Below, one piece after another: positions 3,182 through 33,762 of a stretch of 52,956 nt of DNA (its first letter is position 1; each line of letters starts with the position of its first letter). A program made the position numbers and the translations under genes. Origin of the DNA: Aliarcobacter sp. Its GTDB lineage: Bacteria > Campylobacterota > Campylobacteria > Campylobacterales > Arcobacteraceae. The notes below the pieces were generated by a model that saw only the letters and a list, made by a program, of their open reading frames with translations, did no database searches and was not told where the DNA came from. The stretch spans positions 1 through 52,956 of the forward strand of contig JAGOIF010000004.1 in assembly GCA_017995775.1 (NCBI GenBank), given 5' to 3'.

Positions 3182-5362
3182 ATAGCAAAAAAAATCATAT
3201 CGTTAATTGTACTATTTATTATTATTTATTTTCAATTTACTATTTTTGAAAGTGAAAGAGATGTTGTTGGAAACATTGGAACAATATTCTCTAATTTTTC
3301 ATTAAAATATTTTGGATATTTATCATATGTATATTTATTATTATTTATTTACCCAATTTACGTACTTAACTTTAAAAGAAATGTTCATCAAAAAGATTTA
3401 ATTTTAGATTTTTTAGTTGTTTTTCTATTTTTATTTGTATGTTTGATTTTTCAAGCTTTAATTATTGAAAATCCTTATTTAAAAGGTGAAATCGGAAATA
3501 TTTTAGTAGATTCTCTAAGTCCATTAATTGGTCGTGCGGGACTTTATATTTTTGTATTAGTTGGTTTTATAATATGTTCTTTAGTTTTATTTGAAAATTC
3601 TGATTTTGAAGTGAAAGATTTAATAAATTTAAAAAATAAAATAAAATTAAGAAATAATTTAGACATAAAAAAAATCGAAAATAAACAAAGAGAAAAAAGA
3701 GTAGAAAAAAATACAGAAGAAATTTTAAGAACAATAGATAAAAACTTAAATAAAACAGTTGTAAACAATACAAAAATTGATGAAAAACCTATTAAAATAG
3801 AACAAGATGTTGAAGAATACGAAGATATAATAGAAATCACTACTAATAAAATAACACCTGTATTTGAATCTCAAACAATAATTGTTGAAGAATTAGAAGA
3901 AAATAGAAAACTTCTTGATCAAATGGAACTAGGAAAAGTTGAAAAACCAAAAAATTTTCAACTTCCTCCGAGTTCTTTTTTTCAAACTCCTCCAAAAGAG
4001 CCAAAAACAAAAGTAAATGAAGCTTTTATTGATCAGAAAATTGCAGATTTACTTGATAAACTGGCTATGTTTAAAATAGATGGAGATGTTGTAAGAACTT
4101 ATACAGGTCCTGTTGTTACAACTTTTGAGTTTAAACCAGCACCAAATGTAAAAGTTTCAAAGATACTAGGTCTTCAAGATGATTTAGCAATGGCATTAAA
4201 AGCACAAACAATAAGAATCCAAGCTCCAATTCCTGGAAAAGATGTGGTAGGAATTGAAGTTCCAAATGAAGATACTCAAACTATTTATTTAAAAGAATTA
4301 CTAGATAGTGAGATTTTTCAAAATTCAAAATCTCCATTAACAATGATTTTAGGAAAAGATATAGTTGGAAAACCATTTATTACAGATCTTAAAAAACTTC
4401 CACACTTGTTAATAGCTGGGACTACTGGAAGTGGTAAATCTGTTGGATTAAACTCAATGATTTTGTCATTGCTTTATAAAAACTCACCAGATAATTTAAG
4501 ACTTGTAATGATAGATCCAAAAATGCTTGAGTTTTCAATGTACAACGATATTCCACACCTTTTAACTCCTGTTATTACAAAAGCAGTTGATGCAATTAAC
4601 GCTTTAGCAAATATGGTAAGTGAGATGGAAAGACGTTATACTTTAATGTCAAAAACAAAAACTAAAAACATAGAAAACTACAATGATAAAGCAAAAGTTG
4701 AAGGCTATGAAACAATGCCTTATATTGTTATTGTAATTGATGAGCTTGCAGATTTAATGATGACAAGTGGAAAAGATGTTGAATATTCAATTGCACGTCT
4801 TGCACAAATGGCAAGAGCTTCTGGAATTCACTTAATTGTAGCCACTCAAAGACCATCTGTTGATGTTGTAACAGGACTTATTAAAGCAAATCTTCCAAGT
4901 AGATTATCTTATAAAGTAGGACAAAGAATAGATTCTAAAATTATTCTTGATTCTATGGGTGCTGAATCACTTCTTGGTCGAGGAGATATGTTATTTACAC
5001 CTCCAGGAATGTCAGGACTTGTACGAATCCATGCTCCTTGGTCAACAGAAACAGAAATAGAAAAAGTTGTAGATTTTTTAAAGGCTCAAAGAGAAGTTAT
5101 TTATGATATGAATTTTATAAAAGATAGGAATTTATCTGGAAATTCATCAGGATCTTCAAGTAGTACTGAAATAATAGAATTTGATGAACTTTACGAGGAT
5201 GCAAAACAAATTGTTTTAAGTGAGAAAAAAACATCAATTTCATATATTCAAAGAAGACTTAGAATTGGATATAATAGAGCAGCTACAATTGTAGAGCAAT
5301 TGGAACAATCTGGAATATTATCAGAAGTTAATGCTAAAGGAAATAGAGAAATACTTATTTAA
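3182..5362 (+). CDS. ftsK: DNA translocase FtsK, probable non-canonical (ATA) start
   Basis: FtsK is the septal DNA pump that clears and aligns the terminus region during division and activates Xer recombination. From the first canonical start (TTG, 3443) the protein would be 639 aa and would begin inside a hydrophobic stretch. The same frame stays open upstream to 3167 and encodes further hydrophobic segments (for example ISLIVLFIIIYFQF, then YGYLSYVYLLLF-like sequence) typical of the FtsK membrane domain. No ATG, GTG or TTG occurs there. An AAAGG ribosome site (3170-3174) is 7 bases before ATA at 3182, giving about 726 aa. A charged linker follows, then the motor with Walker A GTTGSGKS and Walker B IVIVIDELADLMM, and a C-terminal winged-helix gamma domain (SYIQRRLRIGYNRAATIVEQLE). 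ATC at 3179 is a less likely alternative. The gene identity is certain; the start is inferred. Confidence 0.93.
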   Translation: MAKKIISLIVLFIIIYFQFTIFESERDVVGNIGTIFSNFSLKYFGYLSYVYLLLFIYPIYVLNFKRNVHQKDLILDFLVVFLFLFVCLIFQALIIENPYLKGEIGNILVDSLSPLIGRAGLYIFVLVGFIICSLVLFENSDFEVKDLINLKNKIKLRNNLDIKKIENKQREKRVEKNTEEILRTIDKNLNKTVVNNTKIDEKPIKIEQDVEEYEDIIEITTNKITPVFESQTIIVEELEENRKLLDQMELGKVEKPKNFQLPPSSFFQTPPKEPKTKVNEAFIDQKIADLLDKLAMFKIDGDVVRTYTGPVVTTFEFKPAPNVKVSKILGLQDDLAMALKAQTIRIQAPIPGKDVVGIEVPNEDTQTIYLKELLDSEIFQNSKSPLTMILGKDIVGKPFITDLKKLPHLLIAGTTGSGKSVGLNSMILSLLYKNSPDNLRLVMIDPKMLEFSMYNDIPHLLTPVITKAVDAINALANMVSEMERRYTLMSKTKTKNIENYNDKAKVEGYETMPYIVIVIDELADLMMTSGKDVEYSIARLAQMARASGIHLIVATQRPSVDVVTGLIKANLPSRLSYKVGQRIDSKIILDSMGAESLLGRGDMLFTPPGMSGLVRIHAPWSTETEIEKVVDFLKAQREVIYDMNFIKDRNLSGNSSGSSSSTEIIEFDELYEDAKQIVLSEKKTSISYIQRRLRIGYNRAATIVEQLEQSGILSEVNAKGNREILI

Positions 5363-26366: not shown

Positions 26367-27440
26367 GTGTATACGGTTTTAGTAATAGATGATTCTGCAT
26401 CAATGAGAAGAATTATAAAAGATATGATTAATTCCATCGATGAATTTGAAGTTATTTGTGTTGCAACTGATGCTTATGATGCAAGAGAAAAAATAAAAGA
26501 ATATGAACCTGATTTAGTTACAATTGATATAAATATGCCAAAAATGGATGGAGTAACTTTTTTAAGAAATTTAATGAGACTTCATCCAATGCCTGCGGTT
26601 GTTATTTCAGGAGAAAGCGTAAGAGGAAATGATATTTTTGATGATGGTGCTGTTGGTTTTATTCCAAAACCAGAAGCAGGTGAATCAATGGATTCATTTC
26701 AAAGTAGGGTTAAAGATACTTTATTAAATTTAACTTTTTTACTAAAAAGATATACATTAAAAAAACCACCAGCATCAAAAGCATCTGAGATTAAAACTCA
26801 AACTATTGAGTATAAAGTACATCCAGATGAAGTTATTTTATCAAAACCTGCAATGCTTCCAGGGATGAAATTAGTAGCAATTGGTTCTTCAACAGGTGGA
26901 GTTGAATCACTATTAAGAGTATTTAAAAAGTTACCAAGCAATTTACCTCCAATTATAATAACACAACATATTCCATATGGTTTTTCAAACTCATTTGCAC
27001 AAAGATTAAATGATCATTCAGATGTAACAGTATGTGAAGCTAAAGATGGAATGATTTTACAAAAAGGTCATGGATATTTAGCTCCTGGAAATATGCATTT
27101 AACTATTGAAAAAGTAGGAAATGACTATAGAACAAAATTACTAGATACAAAAAAAGTTAGTCAACATAAACCTAGCGTTGATGTAATGTTTAGATCTGTA
27201 AATAACAATATTGGTTCATCAGCAATGGCAATTATGATGACTGGTATGGGCGATGATGGAATGATTGCCATGAAAGAATTACATGATAACGGTGCTTATA
27301 CAGTTGCACAAAATGAAGAGAGTTGTGTCGTTTTTGGAATGCCTATGAAAGCAATTCAAGCTGGGGCTGTAAAAGATATTATTCATTTAGATGATATTGC
27401 AGAATACATAATTGAGTTTGCTAAAGGAAGAAGAAAATAG
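26367..27440 (+). CDS. cheB: Chemotaxis methylesterase/deamidase CheB
   Basis: CheB removes methyl groups from receptors after phosphorylation by CheA. The N-terminal receiver domain has phospho-acceptor D54 (VTIDINMPKMDG). The C-terminal esterase has its triad at Ser175 (IGSSTGG), His201 (ITQHIP) and Asp297 (MTGMGDDG). At 357 aa it is the full two-domain form. It starts at GTG; a nearby ATG two bases earlier is in another frame. It closes the che operon. The stop is only 21 bases before the probable dif site. Confidence 0.96.
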   Translation: MYTVLVIDDSASMRRIIKDMINSIDEFEVICVATDAYDAREKIKEYEPDLVTIDINMPKMDGVTFLRNLMRLHPMPAVVISGESVRGNDIFDDGAVGFIPKPEAGESMDSFQSRVKDTLLNLTFLLKRYTLKKPPASKASEIKTQTIEYKVHPDEVILSKPAMLPGMKLVAIGSSTGGVESLLRVFKKLPSNLPPIIITQHIPYGFSNSFAQRLNDHSDVTVCEAKDGMILQKGHGYLAPGNMHLTIEKVGNDYRTKLLDTKKVSQHKPSVDVMFRSVNNNIGSSAMAIMMTGMGDDGMIAMKELHDNGAYTVAQNEESCVVFGMPMKAIQAGAVKDIIHLDDIAEYIIEFAKGRRK

Positions 27441-27460: not shown

Positions 27461-27493
27461 ATTAGTTTGAAAATTATAGTTTTCAATACTAAT
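27461..27493. other. dif: Candidate chromosome-dimer resolution site (dif, XerH type)
   Basis: A near-perfect inverted repeat: left arm ATTAGTTTGAAAA (27461-27473), six-base spacer TTATAG (27474-27479), right arm TTTTCAATACTAAT (27480-27493), with one extra base in the right arm. The GAAAA-N6-TTTTC core with 11-13 bp arms is the layout expected for the dif sites of single-recombinase XerH systems. It lies 30 bases before the probable xerH start, and an ORF start called at TTG 27467 would fall inside it. Function is inferred from structure and position. Confidence 0.6.
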
Positions 27494-27523
27494 TATAATT
27501 TTATATTAATATATGGACGTGAA

Positions 27524-28579
27524 ATGAGATATGATTTAGACATTATGAGTAGTTTTGATAAAACACTCTTATTTTGGATTGAAAGATTAATTAGATACAA
27601 ACTTACATCCCTTTCAAATAAACAAGTTACAGATAAAGATAAACTTGCTGCCATAATTCAATCTTTGATTAAAGGTACAAATAATATTGATGAATTAGCA
27701 ATGACTGTTAAAGATGCCAGAAATATAGGACTTAGTGGAATAAACACATATTTTAATCCTCTTTTTAAACTATACAATTTTTGTATTAATCTTGGACTTG
27801 CTTCCATGAAAGAAATTGATGAAGAACTTCTTAGTGATTTTTTAGCAAGTCAAACAAGTTCATTATCGGATGCTTCTAAAAAAAACCATCGTATTGCCCT
27901 ACTTGCTTTGTTTTCTTACATAGATAAACAAAATGAAAATGAAGATGGAAGTTCATATTTATATAAAATTGAACTTAAAAATTGGGGTGGTTTAAGTGGT
28001 AAAAGTGGTTCAAAACTTCCTTCATATATGAATAAAGAAGAAATTGATAGATTTTTACAAGCTATTGATGATTTTGAATTTACTGATAATATTGCCAATA
28101 GAAATAGACTTATTTTAAAAATTATAATCTATACAGGAATACGAGTTAGTGAAATTTTAAATCTAAGACAAAAAGATATGTTTAAAGAAGATGATGTTTA
28201 TGTTTTACAAATCAAAGGAAAAGGAAATAAACCTAGAATTGTAATGATAAAATCCTCGATAATACAAAATGATTTAAATAATTGGCTTGATATTAGAGTT
28301 TGCAATAGTGATTTACTTGTTTGTAATAAATCAGGAAATAGGCTTACCCAAGCATATGTGAGTAGAATCGTTGAAAATATATTGATAAGTGCTGGAATTA
28401 GAAAAGAAAAAAATGGTGCACATATGTTAAGACATAGTTTTGCAACCCTACTTTATTCTAAACATCGAGATTTGATTCTTGTTCAAGAAGCTTTAGGTCA
28501 TGCAGATATTAATACTTCAAGAATTTACACCCATTTTGATAAGGAAAGATTAAGAGCAACAATTGATTTAATGAGTTAA
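27524..28579 (+). CDS. xerH: XerH tyrosine recombinase
   Basis: XerH is the single-protein Xer recombinase of epsilonproteobacteria, which resolves chromosome dimers at dif with FtsK. The catalytic residues of tyrosine recombinases are present: Arg in YTGIRVSEIL, Lys in IKGKGNKPR, His and Arg in GAHMLRHSFATL, His in LGHADINTSR, and the Tyr nucleophile in RIYTHFDKER. The N-domain matches H. pylori XerH closely (LLFWIERLIRYKLTSLSN). I choose ATG 27524 (351 aa), because the number of residues before LLFW then matches H. pylori XerH and a GGA lies upstream. The longer frame from TTG 27467 begins inside the dif-like repeat. This is a housekeeping recombinase, not a phage integrase. Confidence 0.9.
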   Translation: MRYDLDIMSSFDKTLLFWIERLIRYKLTSLSNKQVTDKDKLAAIIQSLIKGTNNIDELAMTVKDARNIGLSGINTYFNPLFKLYNFCINLGLASMKEIDEELLSDFLASQTSSLSDASKKNHRIALLALFSYIDKQNENEDGSSYLYKIELKNWGGLSGKSGSKLPSYMNKEEIDRFLQAIDDFEFTDNIANRNRLILKIIIYTGIRVSEILNLRQKDMFKEDDVYVLQIKGKGNKPRIVMIKSSIIQNDLNNWLDIRVCNSDLLVCNKSGNRLTQAYVSRIVENILISAGIRKEKNGAHMLRHSFATLLYSKHRDLILVQEALGHADINTSRIYTHFDKERLRATIDLMS

Positions 28580-28639: not shown

Positions 28640-28996
28640 ATGAAAGCTTTAATAATAGTAGCTCATGGAAGTAAATTACAATCTTCCAATGATGAGATCA
28701 GAAATATTGTATTTAAAATAAAAGAAAGTTTACAAGATGATAAGTTGATAGTTCTTTCTTCATTTTTAGAATTAGCAGAACCATCTATTTCTTTTTCTGC
28801 AATTGAAGCTATTAATCAAGGGTGTAAAAATATTAAATTTTTCCCATATTTTCTAGCTGCTGGAAAACACGTAAAAGTAGATATTCCTGATGAAATAAAT
28901 CAATTAAAACAACAATATCCACAAATAAGTTTTGAACTACTTCCTCATATTGGAGAGTGCAAAGGTATAGAAAAACTAATATTATCTAATATTTAG
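28640..28996 (+). CDS. cbiX: Short CbiX-type sirohydrochlorin chelatase
   Basis: This 118-aa single-domain (CbiX-S) chelatase inserts Co2+ or Fe2+ into sirohydrochlorin for sirohaem or cobalamin. The metal-binding histidines are His9 (IIVAHGS) and His77 (AAGKHVKVDIP), with the PYFLAAGKH signature intact. It is half the size of the two-domain family, as expected for a homodimer. It is transcribed from its own promoter and converges with the minus-strand cluster. Cobalt versus iron cannot be decided from sequence. Confidence 0.88.
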   Translation: MKALIIVAHGSKLQSSNDEIRNIVFKIKESLQDDKLIVLSSFLELAEPSISFSAIEAINQGCKNIKFFPYFLAAGKHVKVDIPDEINQLKQQYPQISFELLPHIGECKGIEKLILSNI

Positions 28997-29024
28997 TTTT
29001 TTTATACAAAATAAATCTAAGCTA

Positions 29025-29297
29025 TTACCAAAAGCCTTGAGTATAATTATCATCGCTTGAATTAAACTCTAAATATACATTTTCACTATAATCTATGTAT
29101 AAGTTATAATCCCCTACTGATATTGAATTTTCGATATCTCTTTTATTAAAATAAGCTTCATCTGAATACTCACTAAGAGCATTCAGATGGTACTCTACTA
29201 ATGAAGGTGCCATTGTATCAACAGCATCTTCTAATAGTTTGAAATTTTCAATTCCAAATGTCTTATACAAAGAATCTTTATTTACTAAAATAAACAT
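29025..29297 (-). CDS. Uncharacterised acidic 90-aa protein
   Basis: I do not recognise this family. The 90-aa product is soluble and acidic, with no signal peptide, membrane segment or cysteine. It is mixed alpha/beta by appearance: a helical first half (IENFKLLEDAVDTMAPSLVEYHL) and a strand-rich second half (SISVGDYNLYIDYSENVYLEF). It begins 16 bases after the stop of the coiled-coil gene, so the two are probably co-transcribed and may work together. The ribosome site is weak. It is likely real because frame and spacing fit the operon. Confidence 0.65.
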   Translation of the reverse strand: MFILVNKDSLYKTFGIENFKLLEDAVDTMAPSLVEYHLNALSEYSDEAYFNKRDIENSISVGDYNLYIDYSENVYLEFNSSDDNYTQGFW

Positions 29298-29313
29298 AAT
29301 TTAGAATTTATTT

Positions 29314-29784
29314 CTAATGATTAAAACCATTTAATAATGATGCCATTCTATTTAAATCAATTTTATTGCTACTACCATTTGATGATTCTTCATCTTTTGT
29401 TTCATCTTTTTTTAGAACATTTAATGGATTGTTTTCTGAATTAGTATTTGTATTCGTGTTTGAAGTGCTTTCTAAATTAAGAATATTTTCTTTTTTTTCT
29501 TCTGTTTTAACACCAGTACTAACATCTGATACTTTTCTATTTAAAATACTTTCAATTTTTCCTAACATTGTACTAATATTTGATTTATCTTCTTCTGTAT
29601 GATTTTTAAACTCATCAACATTTTTCTCTAAATCTTCTTTTGCTGATTCTAATTCTAATACTTCGTCTTCTAATTCAACTATTCTTAATTCTAAGTTATT
29701 ATTTTCTTCTTGAAGTTCTTCATATGCCTTAATTAGAGTACTTAAAGCGTTATTTAATTTTGAAATTGTTTCTGCGTTTGTCAT
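29314..29784 (-). CDS. Uncharacterised coiled-coil protein
   Basis: Function unknown. The 156-aa product has an N-terminal coiled coil (about residues 5-75, heptads in LNNALSTLIKAYEELQEE and LRIVELEDEVLELESAKEDL). A low-complexity tail rich in Asn, Thr, Ser and Glu follows (STSNTNTNTNSENN), then a short C-terminal segment NRMASLLNGF that may be a docking peptide. There is no signal or membrane segment. It resembles small cytoskeletal or division adaptors such as ZapB only in general architecture. It is the upstream partner of the acidic 90-aa gene and lies downstream of the oligopeptidase gene. Confidence 0.75.
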   Translation of the reverse strand: MTNAETISKLNNALSTLIKAYEELQEENNNLELRIVELEDEVLELESAKEDLEKNVDEFKNHTEEDKSNISTMLGKIESILNRKVSDVSTGVKTEEKKENILNLESTSNTNTNTNSENNPLNVLKKDETKDEESSNGSSNKIDLNRMASLLNGFNH

Positions 29785-29835
29785 TTTATTAAATCCTTGT
29801 TGGTATAGTTATTAAGAGTGTTATTATTGCAAAAT

Positions 29836-31803
29836 TTAGCTAATAATTCCATCAATTTTTAGTAAAGAATCAACACTTGGCTCTCTTTGTGCAAAATTGA
29901 AAAATAATTTGTCCATATCTGATGAACCACCTTGACTTAATATAGTCTCTTTATACTTTATACCAAGTTCTTTATTAAACACATTATCTGAATCAATAAA
30001 CATATAAAAAGCATCAGCACTTAGTACTTCTGCCCACTTATATGAATAGTATCCAGCTGCATATCCACCTGAAAAAATATGTGAAAATCCATTTTGGAAT
30101 TTATTATATCTAGGAGGTACCATAACAGCGAATTCTTTTCTAAGTGAATCTAATAAATCCTGTATTTCATCTTCCGTTTTGTATAACTTTTGATATACTT
30201 TAAAATCAAACAATGCAAATTCCACTTGTCTTAAAGTTGCAAGTGATGATTGGAAGTTTTTAGCTTTGATTATCTTATTGATAGCCTCATCATCTAAAAC
30301 TTCTCCTGTAATATAATGTTTTGCAAATAGTTTTAAAACTTCTTTATCGTAAGAAAAATATTCTAAAAATTGTGATGGGAACTCAACAGTATCCCAAGCA
30401 ACTCCAGAAATACCACTTACAAATGGTTCTTCTATTTTACTTAATAAGTGATGTAATGCATGTCCCATTTCATGAAATAATGTAACAACATCTGAGTGTC
30501 TTAAAAGTGATGGTGTTTCTTCTGTAGATTGTGGAAAATTTCCTACAATATATGCAGTTGGAAGATTTAGCTCACCTTTTGAATCTTTGTAGTAACTATG
30601 CCAGTTATTCATCCAAGCGCCACCACGCTTCTCTTTTCTAGCTTCTAAATCAATATAAATTCTAGCAATTGTTTTTCCATCTTCGCTTAAATCATAAACT
30701 TTTACTTTTTCATCCCAAGCAGGTGTATTCGCTTTAGTAAACTTAATATTAAACATTTGATGTAAGAAATCAAAAAAACCATTTAAAACAGATTGTTGCT
30801 CAAAATATGGTCTGTAATACTCTTCATCTAAATCATACTGCTCTTTTTTAAGCTTTTCAGAGTAGTAAGACATATCACTTGATCTAAAATCAGTGATACC
30901 ATCTTTAAATGCCATTGCTTTTATATCTTCAAGCTCTTCTTTTGCTTTATTTTTAGCTTTATGACCTAATTCTTCTAAGAATTTAATAACATCTTCTTCT
31001 TTTGAAGCCATTTTTGTAGCAAGTGAATATTGTGCATAGTTTTCAAAACCAAGAATTTTAACTTTTTCGTTTTTTAAAGCTAGAATTTCTTCAATTATTT
31101 TTCCATTTTCAGGAGCTCTTGTACAATATGCCTTGTAAATCTCTTCTCTTTTTTCTCTTGATGTTCCATATGTAATATATGCTAAATAAGATGGCATTTG
31201 AAGTGTAAATTTATATTTAGTAACTCCAGCTTCTTCAAACTTTGCTAATTGTAAATCAGAACTTGGGATTTCTTTTACATCTTCAAAATCATCAATTATC
31301 ATTTCAAACTTATTTGTAGCATTTAAAAGATTTTGAGAAAACTTATGAGATAGTTCACTAAGTCTTAAACTTATCTCTTCTAATCTTTTCTTTTGCTTCT
31401 TTTCAAGATGACAACCTGATAGTGTAAAGTCTCTTATCTCATTTTCTAAAACTTTATTTTGTATATTATTTAAACTACTATTTTCATTAGACTGTATAGT
31501 TTTTAAAGATATATAAATATCTTCATTTTGAGAAATATCTGTCTCGTACTTTGAGATAAGTGGTATGCACTCTTCATATACTTTTGTAGTTATTTCTGAA
31601 TTTTTTACAGAGTCTATATGAAAAATAGGAGTAAGAAAATTATTGATATTCTCCCCTATTTCTTGAAATGGCAAAACAAAATTTTTGTATGTTTTATTTT
31701 CTATTTTTAATAAATCATCAATTTCATTTCTACTTTTATCTAATAATTTTTCTAATATCTCTTTTGAGTTTTCTAAATTTTCTAAATTAAATTCTTTAAA
31801 CAT
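29836..31803 (-). CDS. prlC: M3-family oligopeptidase (PrlC/OpdA type)
   Basis: This cytoplasmic zinc oligopeptidase degrades short peptides and cleaved signal peptides. The zinc motif HExxH is at TLFHEMGHALHHLL (His444, Glu445, His448), and the third ligand is in the downstream EFPSQFLEYF helix. The substrate-closing loop GGYAAGYYSYKWAEVLSAD is intact. The 655 residues are close to E. coli PrlC (680). It is preceded by prmC with a 13-base gap (31804-31816), so it is co-transcribed with hemW and prmC. Confidence 0.93.
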   Translation of the reverse strand: MFKEFNLENLENSKEILEKLLDKSRNEIDDLLKIENKTYKNFVLPFQEIGENINNFLTPIFHIDSVKNSEITTKVYEECIPLISKYETDISQNEDIYISLKTIQSNENSSLNNIQNKVLENEIRDFTLSGCHLEKKQKKRLEEISLRLSELSHKFSQNLLNATNKFEMIIDDFEDVKEIPSSDLQLAKFEEAGVTKYKFTLQMPSYLAYITYGTSREKREEIYKAYCTRAPENGKIIEEILALKNEKVKILGFENYAQYSLATKMASKEEDVIKFLEELGHKAKNKAKEELEDIKAMAFKDGITDFRSSDMSYYSEKLKKEQYDLDEEYYRPYFEQQSVLNGFFDFLHQMFNIKFTKANTPAWDEKVKVYDLSEDGKTIARIYIDLEARKEKRGGAWMNNWHSYYKDSKGELNLPTAYIVGNFPQSTEETPSLLRHSDVVTLFHEMGHALHHLLSKIEEPFVSGISGVAWDTVEFPSQFLEYFSYDKEVLKLFAKHYITGEVLDDEAINKIIKAKNFQSSLATLRQVEFALFDFKVYQKLYKTEDEIQDLLDSLRKEFAVMVPPRYNKFQNGFSHIFSGGYAAGYYSYKWAEVLSADAFYMFIDSDNVFNKELGIKYKETILSQGGSSDMDKLFFNFAQREPSVDSLLKIDGIIS

Positions 31804-31816
31804 TTTATTCCTTCTT

Positions 31817-32644
31817 TTATATTTTAAATTTTAGAGTAAATCCTCTATCAAAACTTTCATAATCTTTATAAAAACTATAAGAATCCACATTAAACTCTTT
31901 AAAGTAGTTTTCTAAAGGATTCTTTTGATCATAACCCATTTCACAAAGTAAATAAGGTATTTTTCGCTCACTTGTGTTTTTAATGATATCTTTTAATAAC
32001 TCATCTCCAATATTTCCACCAAATAACGCATTTGAAGGCTCATATTTTACATTTGTTGATAACTTATAATCATTTGCAATATATGGAGGATTTGAAATAC
32101 AAAGAAAAATATCATCTTCATTCACATTTTCATACAAATTACTTAATCTAAATTCAATTTTATTTTGCACATTGTGCTTTATGGCGTTCTCTTTTGCTAA
32201 GGCTAATGCCTTTTCATTTATATCAACTGCTATTATTTTTATGTTTGGAACTAAAAGCGCTAGCATCACAGAGATAATTCCACTTCCTGTGCCTATTTCT
32301 AGGATTGTTTGTGTTTCTTTCTTATCTTTTAAAATCTCAAGGGCATTTTCAAGAAGAAATTCTGTTTCTGGTCTTGGTATTAAAACACCCTCTTTTACAA
32401 TGAACATTTCCCCATAAAAAGAGGCTTTGTTAATTATATATTCTAAAGGATAGTTTGTAGCTCTTTTTTTAACTAAATTAGCTAATTCTTTTTCTTTTAA
32501 AAATTCGTTATTATAGTTTAGATGTAACCATATTGTGTTTTTTTCTAAAAGATGTAACATCAATATTTCCACTTCTTTGGCTGGTATATGTGTTACTTGC
32601 TTTAATTCATTTGTGTATTTTTTTACTGTATCTTTTATAGTCAT
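31817..32644 (-). CDS. prmC: Release-factor glutamine methyltransferase PrmC
   Basis: PrmC methylates the GGQ glutamine of peptide release factors RF1 and RF2 using SAM. The SAM motif is TILEIGTGSGIISVML, and the catalytic NPPY is in CISNPPYIAND, about residue 184. The N-terminal helical release-factor-binding domain is present (residues 1-80). At 275 aa it is normal. It lies downstream of hemW on the minus strand and directly upstream of the oligopeptidase. Confidence 0.95.
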   Translation of the reverse strand: MTIKDTVKKYTNELKQVTHIPAKEVEILMLHLLEKNTIWLHLNYNNEFLKEKELANLVKKRATNYPLEYIINKASFYGEMFIVKEGVLIPRPETEFLLENALEILKDKKETQTILEIGTGSGIISVMLALLVPNIKIIAVDINEKALALAKENAIKHNVQNKIEFRLSNLYENVNEDDIFLCISNPPYIANDYKLSTNVKYEPSNALFGGNIGDELLKDIIKNTSERKIPYLLCEMGYDQKNPLENYFKEFNVDSYSFYKDYESFDRGFTLKFKI

Positions 32645-32694
32645 TTATTTTTACCTTTTAAAAGCTTCGATTATATTATAAATTTGTTAACAAA

Positions 32695-33762
32695 CTAATC
32701 TAGTATATATAAGGCTAATTCATCAGAAAGTAAGAAATTTTTGTTAAAAACTTTATTATCTTCTATATAAACTTTGTCATATTTGATTAAATCATCAATT
32801 TTTTCTAATTCCTGTTCATTAAATAATGAAATTTCTATCCCATTTGAACATCTTAATCCAAGTAGTATTTTTTCTGTTTTTACATCACTTTCATCTATAT
32901 CTTCAAAGTCATAAAAAAGTGGATTTTCTATATATTCTTCAATCCCTTTTAAAGGATATTGTCTTTGTTTATTTACATATCCAACAGCTCCAGCTCCAAC
33001 TCCTAAATACTCTTTATGTTGCCAATATCCATAGTTATGTTTTGATTCAGATTCTTTGTTTATTGCAAAATTTGATATCTCATATTGATGAAAACCTTTA
33101 GTATTTATGTAATCAAAAATTTCATATGATAACTCTTCATCATCAATCTTTACACTTGATGTATCAAAAAATTTTGTTCCTTCTTCAATGATTAAAGAAT
33201 AAGCACTTAAATGGGTTATTGGAAGTGAGAAAGCTGTATCGAAATCCATCTTTAGACTTTCCAATGTATCATTTTTAACACCATATATTATATCGCAGTT
33301 AATACCTTTAAAACCTATACTGTGAGCATTTTGTATAGCCTTTATAGCACTATTACTATTATGTGAGCGGCCAAGGAATTTTAGTTTATTATTTTCAAAA
33401 CTTTGAACACCAAAACTAACACGATTAACCCCTAAATTATACATACCTTTTAGCCACTCATACGAGGCTGAATTAGGATTTGCTTCTGTTGTTATCTCAG
33501 CATTTTCTTCTAGATATGGCTTTATCATTTTGAATATTTCTTCATATTCAAAAGCCTTAATTGTAGAAGGAGTTCCTCCTCCTATAAATACTGTTTCTAT
33601 TTTTTTATTATCTTTTATAAGATAATTATCGAGATTATTTCTTAGTTGTTTTTTTAATGCATTCATATACTCATGTTTTAAATGAAATCTATCTGTGTAT
33701 GAATTAAAAGCGCAGTAAAAACATTTACTATCGCAAAAGGGTATGTGTATATATAAAAGCAA
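32695..33762 (-). CDS. hemW: Radical SAM haem chaperone HemW
   Basis: HemW is a radical SAM protein of the coproporphyrinogen dehydrogenase-like family that delivers haem to respiratory enzymes. The [4Fe-4S] cysteines are C10, C14 and C17 (FCDSKCFYC). HemW lacks the extra N-terminal residues of true HemN. Other motifs are FIGGGTPS, ITTEANP, GVNRVSFGVQSF and the C-terminal winged helix. At 355 aa it fits HemW rather than HemN (about 450). It is divergent from rppH with a 55-base shared control region, and is the first gene of the hemW-prmC-prlC cluster. Confidence 0.92.
   Translation of the reverse strand: MLLYIHIPFCDSKCFYCAFNSYTDRFHLKHEYMNALKKQLRNNLDNYLIKDNKKIETVFIGGGTPSTIKAFEYEEIFKMIKPYLEENAEITTEANPNSASYEWLKGMYNLGVNRVSFGVQSFENNKLKFLGRSHNSNSAIKAIQNAHSIGFKGINCDIIYGVKNDTLESLKMDFDTAFSLPITHLSAYSLIIEEGTKFFDTSSVKIDDEELSYEIFDYINTKGFHQYEISNFAINKESESKHNYGYWQHKEYLGVGAGAVGYVNKQRQYPLKGIEEYIENPLFYDFEDIDESDVKTEKILLGLRCSNGIEISLFNEQELEKIDDLIKYDKVYIEDNKVFNKNFLLSDELALYILD

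Follow-up and report, generated by a model that had tools for sequence, protein, structure and literature searches.

A difH site directly upstream of xerH in an Aliarcobacter genome, very probably for dimer resolution, with apparent insertions of prophages and recombinase modules at difH in relatives

The window, the whole stretch of DNA that was analysed, comprises positions 1 to 52,956 (52,956 nucleotides) of contig JAGOIF010000004.1 from an Aliarcobacter draft genome. A palindrome lies between cheB and xerH, 20 bp past the cheB stop (27440) and 30 bp ahead of the xerH ATG (27524). The features of the locus are as follows, with the evidence in parentheses.

3443–5362, plus strand: ftsK, DNA translocase (PF01580, PF17854 and PF09397; FtsK_SpoIIIE, alpha and gamma domains)
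26367–27440, plus strand: cheB, upstream flank of difH and end of a conserved che cluster (NF001965, 360 bits)
27461–27493, minus strand in the canonical reading: difH, very probable XerH recombination site (sequence, single copy, conservation, match to Arcobacter nitrofigilis difH)
27461–27473, minus strand: difH right arm, TTTTCAAACTAAT (sequence)
27474–27479, minus strand: difH central region CTATAA between two predicted cleavage points (sequence; six-base centre as in PMC5241119 and PMC3325230)
27480–27493, minus strand: difH left arm with a one-base insertion, ATTAGTATTGAAAA (sequence)
27494–27499, plus strand: TATAAT box touching difH, possible −10 element of a xerH promoter (sequence)
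27524–28579, plus strand: xerH, 351-aa tyrosine recombinase (phmmer 9.8e-104 to H. pylori XerH 5JJV/5JK0; PF18644 and PF00589)

As the preliminary description stated, the palindrome is a near-perfect 33-base inverted repeat with a TTATAG spacer. On the plus strand it consists of ATTAGTTTGAAAA (27461–27473), TTATAG (27474–27479) and TTTTCAATACTAAT (27480–27493), and the arms are perfect inverted repeats apart from one additional base in the right-hand arm. The minus-strand reading of 27461–27493 is ATTAGTATTGAAAA-CTATAA-TTTTCAAACTAAT, and in this reading the site is oriented opposite to xerH. The product of 27524–28579 is a XerH-type tyrosine recombinase, closest to XerH of H. pylori, with an intact active site: the expected catalytic motifs TGIR, IKGKG, HMLRHS, LGHA and SRIYTH are present, and the 351-aa protein scores far under the model cut-offs for XerC, XerD, XerS and XerA. 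The residue aligned with K290 of H. pylori XerH was read from the alignment as Arg. The ORF lister started the xerH frame at a TTG at 27467, which we rejected as a mechanical over-extension; the gene starts at the ATG at 27524.

The GAAAA-N6-TTTTC core had been proposed to follow the XerH dif layout, and this was borne out both by published difH sequences and by the neighbouring XerH protein. The published difH of A. nitrofigilis includes ATTAGTATTGAAAACTATAATTTTCAAACTAA, and the minus strand of the window site is identical to it across 32 bases (PMC3325230 Table 2). Like other difH sites, the window site has inverted arms with GAAAA and TTTTC on the inner side, a 6-bp centre and a left arm one base longer. 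The preliminary description had named a better motif elsewhere, or loss of the dyad in related genomes, as what would speak against the site. In the window's own genome (2.51-Mb draft, 209 contigs, 95% completeness) a search at ≤3 mismatches found one copy of difH and no competitor. A second perfect core match in this genome (C54:306-325; L032 293-338, G000:C54), a perfect inverted repeat around TTGAAAA-TTGCCG-TTTTCAA, was rejected as difH; its outer arms are unrelated and it scored −5.8 versus 37–50 for true sites. It lies on a 6-kb plasmid-like contig with a gene resembling a mobilisation gene and could be a plasmid site.

On its own, dyad symmetry is a poor indicator of difH, because the window contains 18 perfect 7-6-7 inverted repeats when 13.1 are expected. 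The difH dyad is the best of these 18, with an arm match of 13/13 (one indel allowed), a quality reached only twice in 60 simulated windows. The abundance of 7-base inner-arm repeats in so A+T-rich a window would suit a chance palindrome, but the site is kept in 30 of the 31 genus genomes (own included) at ≤3 mismatches, the reversed-pattern control gave 0 matches in any genome, and the identity with published difH would be left unexplained; we consider the probability of coincidence negligible. The only congener that lacks an intact difH is G002, in which an insertion splits the site. In nearly all genus genomes with difH the distance to the xerH start is 30–71 bp, and cheB neighbours difH in most congeners too. 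It is thus the sequence match and the conservation, and not symmetry alone, that settle the identity as far as sequence comparison can, and the palindrome is almost certainly difH, at which a single-recombinase Xer system resolves chromosome dimers. The difH of A. butzleri was predicted in 2009 by Carnoy and Roten, 66 bp from xerH (PMC2731167), so the window difH is a kind of site already known. Linkage of difH to xerH is not unusual either, having been reported earlier for A. butzleri and most XerH bacteria.

An inverted repeat directly after a stop codon might instead terminate the cheB transcript or form a stem-loop in it. This is scarcely credible here, since a search for a terminator-like stem with a T-run found none, and sequence conservation extends to the centre and the one-base asymmetry, also where cheB is not the neighbour. 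Alternatively, XerH or another protein could bind the dyad as an operator and regulate xerH, recombination being secondary. The position between cheB and the xerH start, the adjoining TATAAT box and the promoter-like hexamers that overlap the dyad are compatible with an operator; the overlapping matches are weak (3 versus 1.3 in shuffles) and give no evidence of function. Set against this are the match to an experimentally studied difH, the position opposite dnaA, and the conservation of difH in genomes G029 and G031 even though it lies kilobases from xerH. We regard a primarily regulatory dyad as unlikely, and the operator and recombination-site roles are mutually compatible.

Orientation of difH relative to xerH varies between close relatives (L001-L030). 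The two read in opposite directions in three separate genus lineages (G000/G001/G018, G003/G013 and G025); most other genus genomes have them in one direction, and the cheB-xerH order is unchanged. The pseudo-palindromic centre (CTATAA/TTATAG) may permit occasional in-place flips or reversed integration. In several congeners a putative MFS transporter gene and/or a gene of ~200 aa lies between cheB and difH (L035, L037, L040, L042, L050), and this is another recurrent insertion at the cheB-difH spot. Genome G020 carries the whole locus, and hence difH, in two near-identical copies, probably two strains in one assembly. An extra TATTGAAAACTATAA match occurs inside ftsK in G011, G018 and G028. 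Pairs of TATTGAAAACTATAA ~16–17 kb apart in other genera were rejected as elements; they look like difH plus a match elsewhere.

The site had also been taken to mark the replication terminus, some 20 kb from ftsK. The distance was right: ftsK (3443–5362) is 22 kb away, and in most complete congeners it lies within about 12–37 kb of difH. The terminus was upheld with one refinement, namely that the GC-skew switch is not at difH. Since the window's own genome is a 209-contig draft, its terminus could not be mapped directly. In 16 congener chromosomes that start at dnaA, difH is located at 0.475–0.563 of the length (mean 0.507), close to the replication terminus. Within the window, GC skew tracks the direction of the genes, with no switch at difH. 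It is negative from ~28.5 to 33.7 kb (28640–33762), where most genes are on the minus strand, a pattern set by gene direction and not by the terminus. In G001, the nearest complete relative (XerH 89% identical), 20-kb skew blocks change from positive to negative at ~1.505 Mb, ~34 kb downstream of xerH, blocks further from the site being noisy. The difH of A. butzleri lies 34.7 kb from the GC-skew maximum (PMC2731167), an offset equal to that in G001. Transferred to window coordinates, the switch would fall at about 62,000, beyond the window end. The window difH is taken to mark the region of the terminus in an Arcobacter-type genome, together with its dimer-resolution module.

In such a module a circular dimer would arise by recombination between sister chromosomes. 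FtsK, which XerH/difH recombination requires in H. pylori, would gather two difH copies at the septum. Each copy would be bound by two XerH monomers, one per arm; the left arm would be cut first and strands exchanged across the six-base centre, converting the dimer into monomers. Both the XerH/FtsK dependence of recombination at the window difH and the roles of its left and right arms are predicted by homology with H. pylori, where the left arm of difH has one extra base pair and is preferentially bound and cleaved (PMC5241119).

The cheB-difH-xerH order is broken at difH in several congeners. Prophages of 8–12 kb, either inovirus-like or lysozyme-encoding, occupy difH in six relatives that belong to two genera. 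Type A insertions occur in G005, G015 and G029 and in the viral contigs L114 and L115. Besides a winged-helix protein they encode an M13 pIV-like secretin, a Zot/pI ATPase and a rolling-circle Rep, the last of which was not seen in L115, a truncated contig. The inovirus gene set is found in L114 (PF05840/PF23343, PF05707, PF00263, phrog_1012), with homologues in G005, G015, G029 and G043. Type A elements are inovirus-like by gene content and are candidate producers of filamentous particles. Type B is present in G011 and, as two inverted copies, in G012, at the locus that viral contig L116 also represents; it codes for an endonuclease-like protein, a phage lysozyme and a related winged-helix protein. 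Half-difH matches of 17 bases in viral contigs other than L114-L116 were rejected as probably coding or chance matches. Elements with a single full and a single half difH in direct orientation measure 8–11 kb. The elements are listed below.

G005, type A: difH sites 1243750/1254396, span 1243750–1254414 (L036/L155), direct orientation
G011, type B: difH sites 1419122/1408139, span 1408139–1419153 (L038/L156), direct orientation
G015, type A: difH sites 977339/967681, direct orientation
G029, type A: difH sites 1639338/1649417, span 1639338–1649435 (L045/L159), direct orientation
L041 184–9869: difH prophage-like element, full and half difH in direct orientation
L215 6128–14211: difH prophage-like element, full and half difH in direct orientation
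G012:C1:1083818–1107860 (L157, L039, L054): double insertion, full difH between inverted copies, half site at each outer end

Every insertion is bounded by an intact difH on its winged-helix side and by a half difH on the opposite side, the two being in direct orientation in five of the six cases (G005, G011, G015, G029, G043). At the same stringency, 3 Mb of simulated sequence gave one left and five right chance half-sites on both strands. In G043, which belongs to another genus, the order over 8.1 kb is half site, Rep, secretin, pI, winged-helix gene, full difH, xerH. The two inverted copies of the 12-kb lysozyme-encoding element in G012 are 95–99% identical in most aligned segments, and their winged-helix genes beside difH differ. 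When the flanks were joined, they matched the empty site of a related species (G011 versus G010, 90.8%; G015 versus G014, 84.1%). These alignments indicate that integration in the relatives is exactly at difH.

Of 104 Arcobacteraceae genomes, 8 gave a match to the winged-helix family, one of them weak and partial; the other seven matched strongly, and there each of the eight genes starts 30–90 bp from difH. Weak partial matches in G056 (far from difH) and G127 were left out of the counts. Phage and plasmid record collections held no relative of this difH-adjacent gene, and the phage collection none of the pI protein. No integrase-like protein was found among the element representatives scanned (part of their ORFs). 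In relatives difH thus also acts as the integration site of these prophages, which probably borrow XerH from the host. The prophages abutting difH raise the question of whether the window site is mainly an attachment site left by a prophage and not a host dimer-resolution site. This is very improbable: the winged-helix family is absent from the window's own genome, no second difH-like site lies near, and difH is present opposite dnaA in genomes that have no such prophage. The window difH is an empty target, unoccupied by any prophage.

Three SPECIFICITIES occur in Arcobacteraceae: in the sample of family genomes, three dif types recur ahead of xerH.

Class I dif: TTGAAAA (the class of the window)
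Class II dif: TTGGAAA
Class III dif: TGTGAAAA

These classes track the XerH tree closely, with the divergent G036 as an outlier, and they cross genus borders (for example I and II in g9 and g19; II and III in g8, g18 and g20). Sites with GGAAA arms, paired with an S-x-H-V XerH, are scattered over genera upstream of xerH (L176-L194, L213, L214), and the TTGGAAACTATAATTTCCAA form is also present in another family of the order. The N-terminal bundle of XerH (aa 12–88) makes most base-specific contacts, on the inner five base pairs (PMC5241119). The clearest differences between classes I and II in this DNA-reading bundle are G72/N74/T75 versus S72/H74/V75 (5JJV chain numbering). The S-x-H-V motif co-varies with GGAAA arms, and the main class split is one evolutionary event. 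In G031 and G032, XerH groups within class II and does not have S and H at those positions, and the genomes carry a GAAAA difH, which makes a second change that goes the way predicted. The pairing of GAAAA and GGAAA with G-x-N-T and S-x-H-V would represent a natural specificity switch, in which XerH site recognition can be tested by swapping two or three residues.

Class II modules appear to have entered class I difH sites twice. In G090 the module would have entered nearly alone (~1.2 kb), and the order within 2.4 kb (G090:C1:29727–32066, L196) is xerH-I, half class I difH, class II difH, xerH-II, full class I difH. In G002 a 20-kb defence island splits the class I difH; it carries a xerH/difH pair of class II together with a BrxC/D ATPase, a large integrase (Integrase_2) and TerB-type domains.

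G002:C1:1264652–1284941 (L051-L053): insertion splitting the class I difH

Joining the two difH halves of G002 gives a match of 93.4% to the empty G006 site. Insertion of GGAAA xerH-difH modules into GAAAA difH would mean that mobile recombinase/site cassettes take the place of chromosome-resolution systems. Taken together, we think it likely that the XerH/difH system of Arcobacteraceae is exploited both by recombinase-less inovirus-like and lysozyme prophages, with their winged-helix gene 30–90 bp from difH, and by GGAAA/S-x-H-V modules inserted into GAAAA difH.

Among known systems, integrative mobile elements exploiting Xer (IMEX), such as CTXphi, the gonococcal genomic island and Legionella LME-1 (PMC9765430), resemble the elements of the relatives in leaving one full and one altered dif. 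The closest precedent found for the difH prophages is LME-1 on Legionella XerL/dif (PMC9765430). The relatives differ in that their host system is XerH/difH, for which no IMEX description was found, and the window site is empty. The open-access literature searched likewise yielded no description of an inovirus combined with XerH, of difH prophages, of XerH/difH specificity classes or of class II modules inserted into class I difH. As a target of filamentous-phage-like prophages, difH would bring the XerH system into IMEX biology. XerS shares with the window system a single recombinase, a site beside its gene and a similar site sequence; however, XerH is phylogenetically separate, and the window protein scores ~82 bits to the XerS model against a cut-off of 267. 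The XerH/difH systems of H. pylori, Campylobacter and Arcobacter (PMC2731167; PMC3325230; PMC5241119) have the same GAAAA-N6-TTTTC arms with a one-base insertion in the left arm, and likewise a single recombinase of ~355 aa and a site near the terminus; the site adjoins xerH, as it does in A. butzleri (66 bp). From these the window system shows no defining difference; it is set apart by a site that reads opposite to xerH and by the Arg at the position of H. pylori K290.
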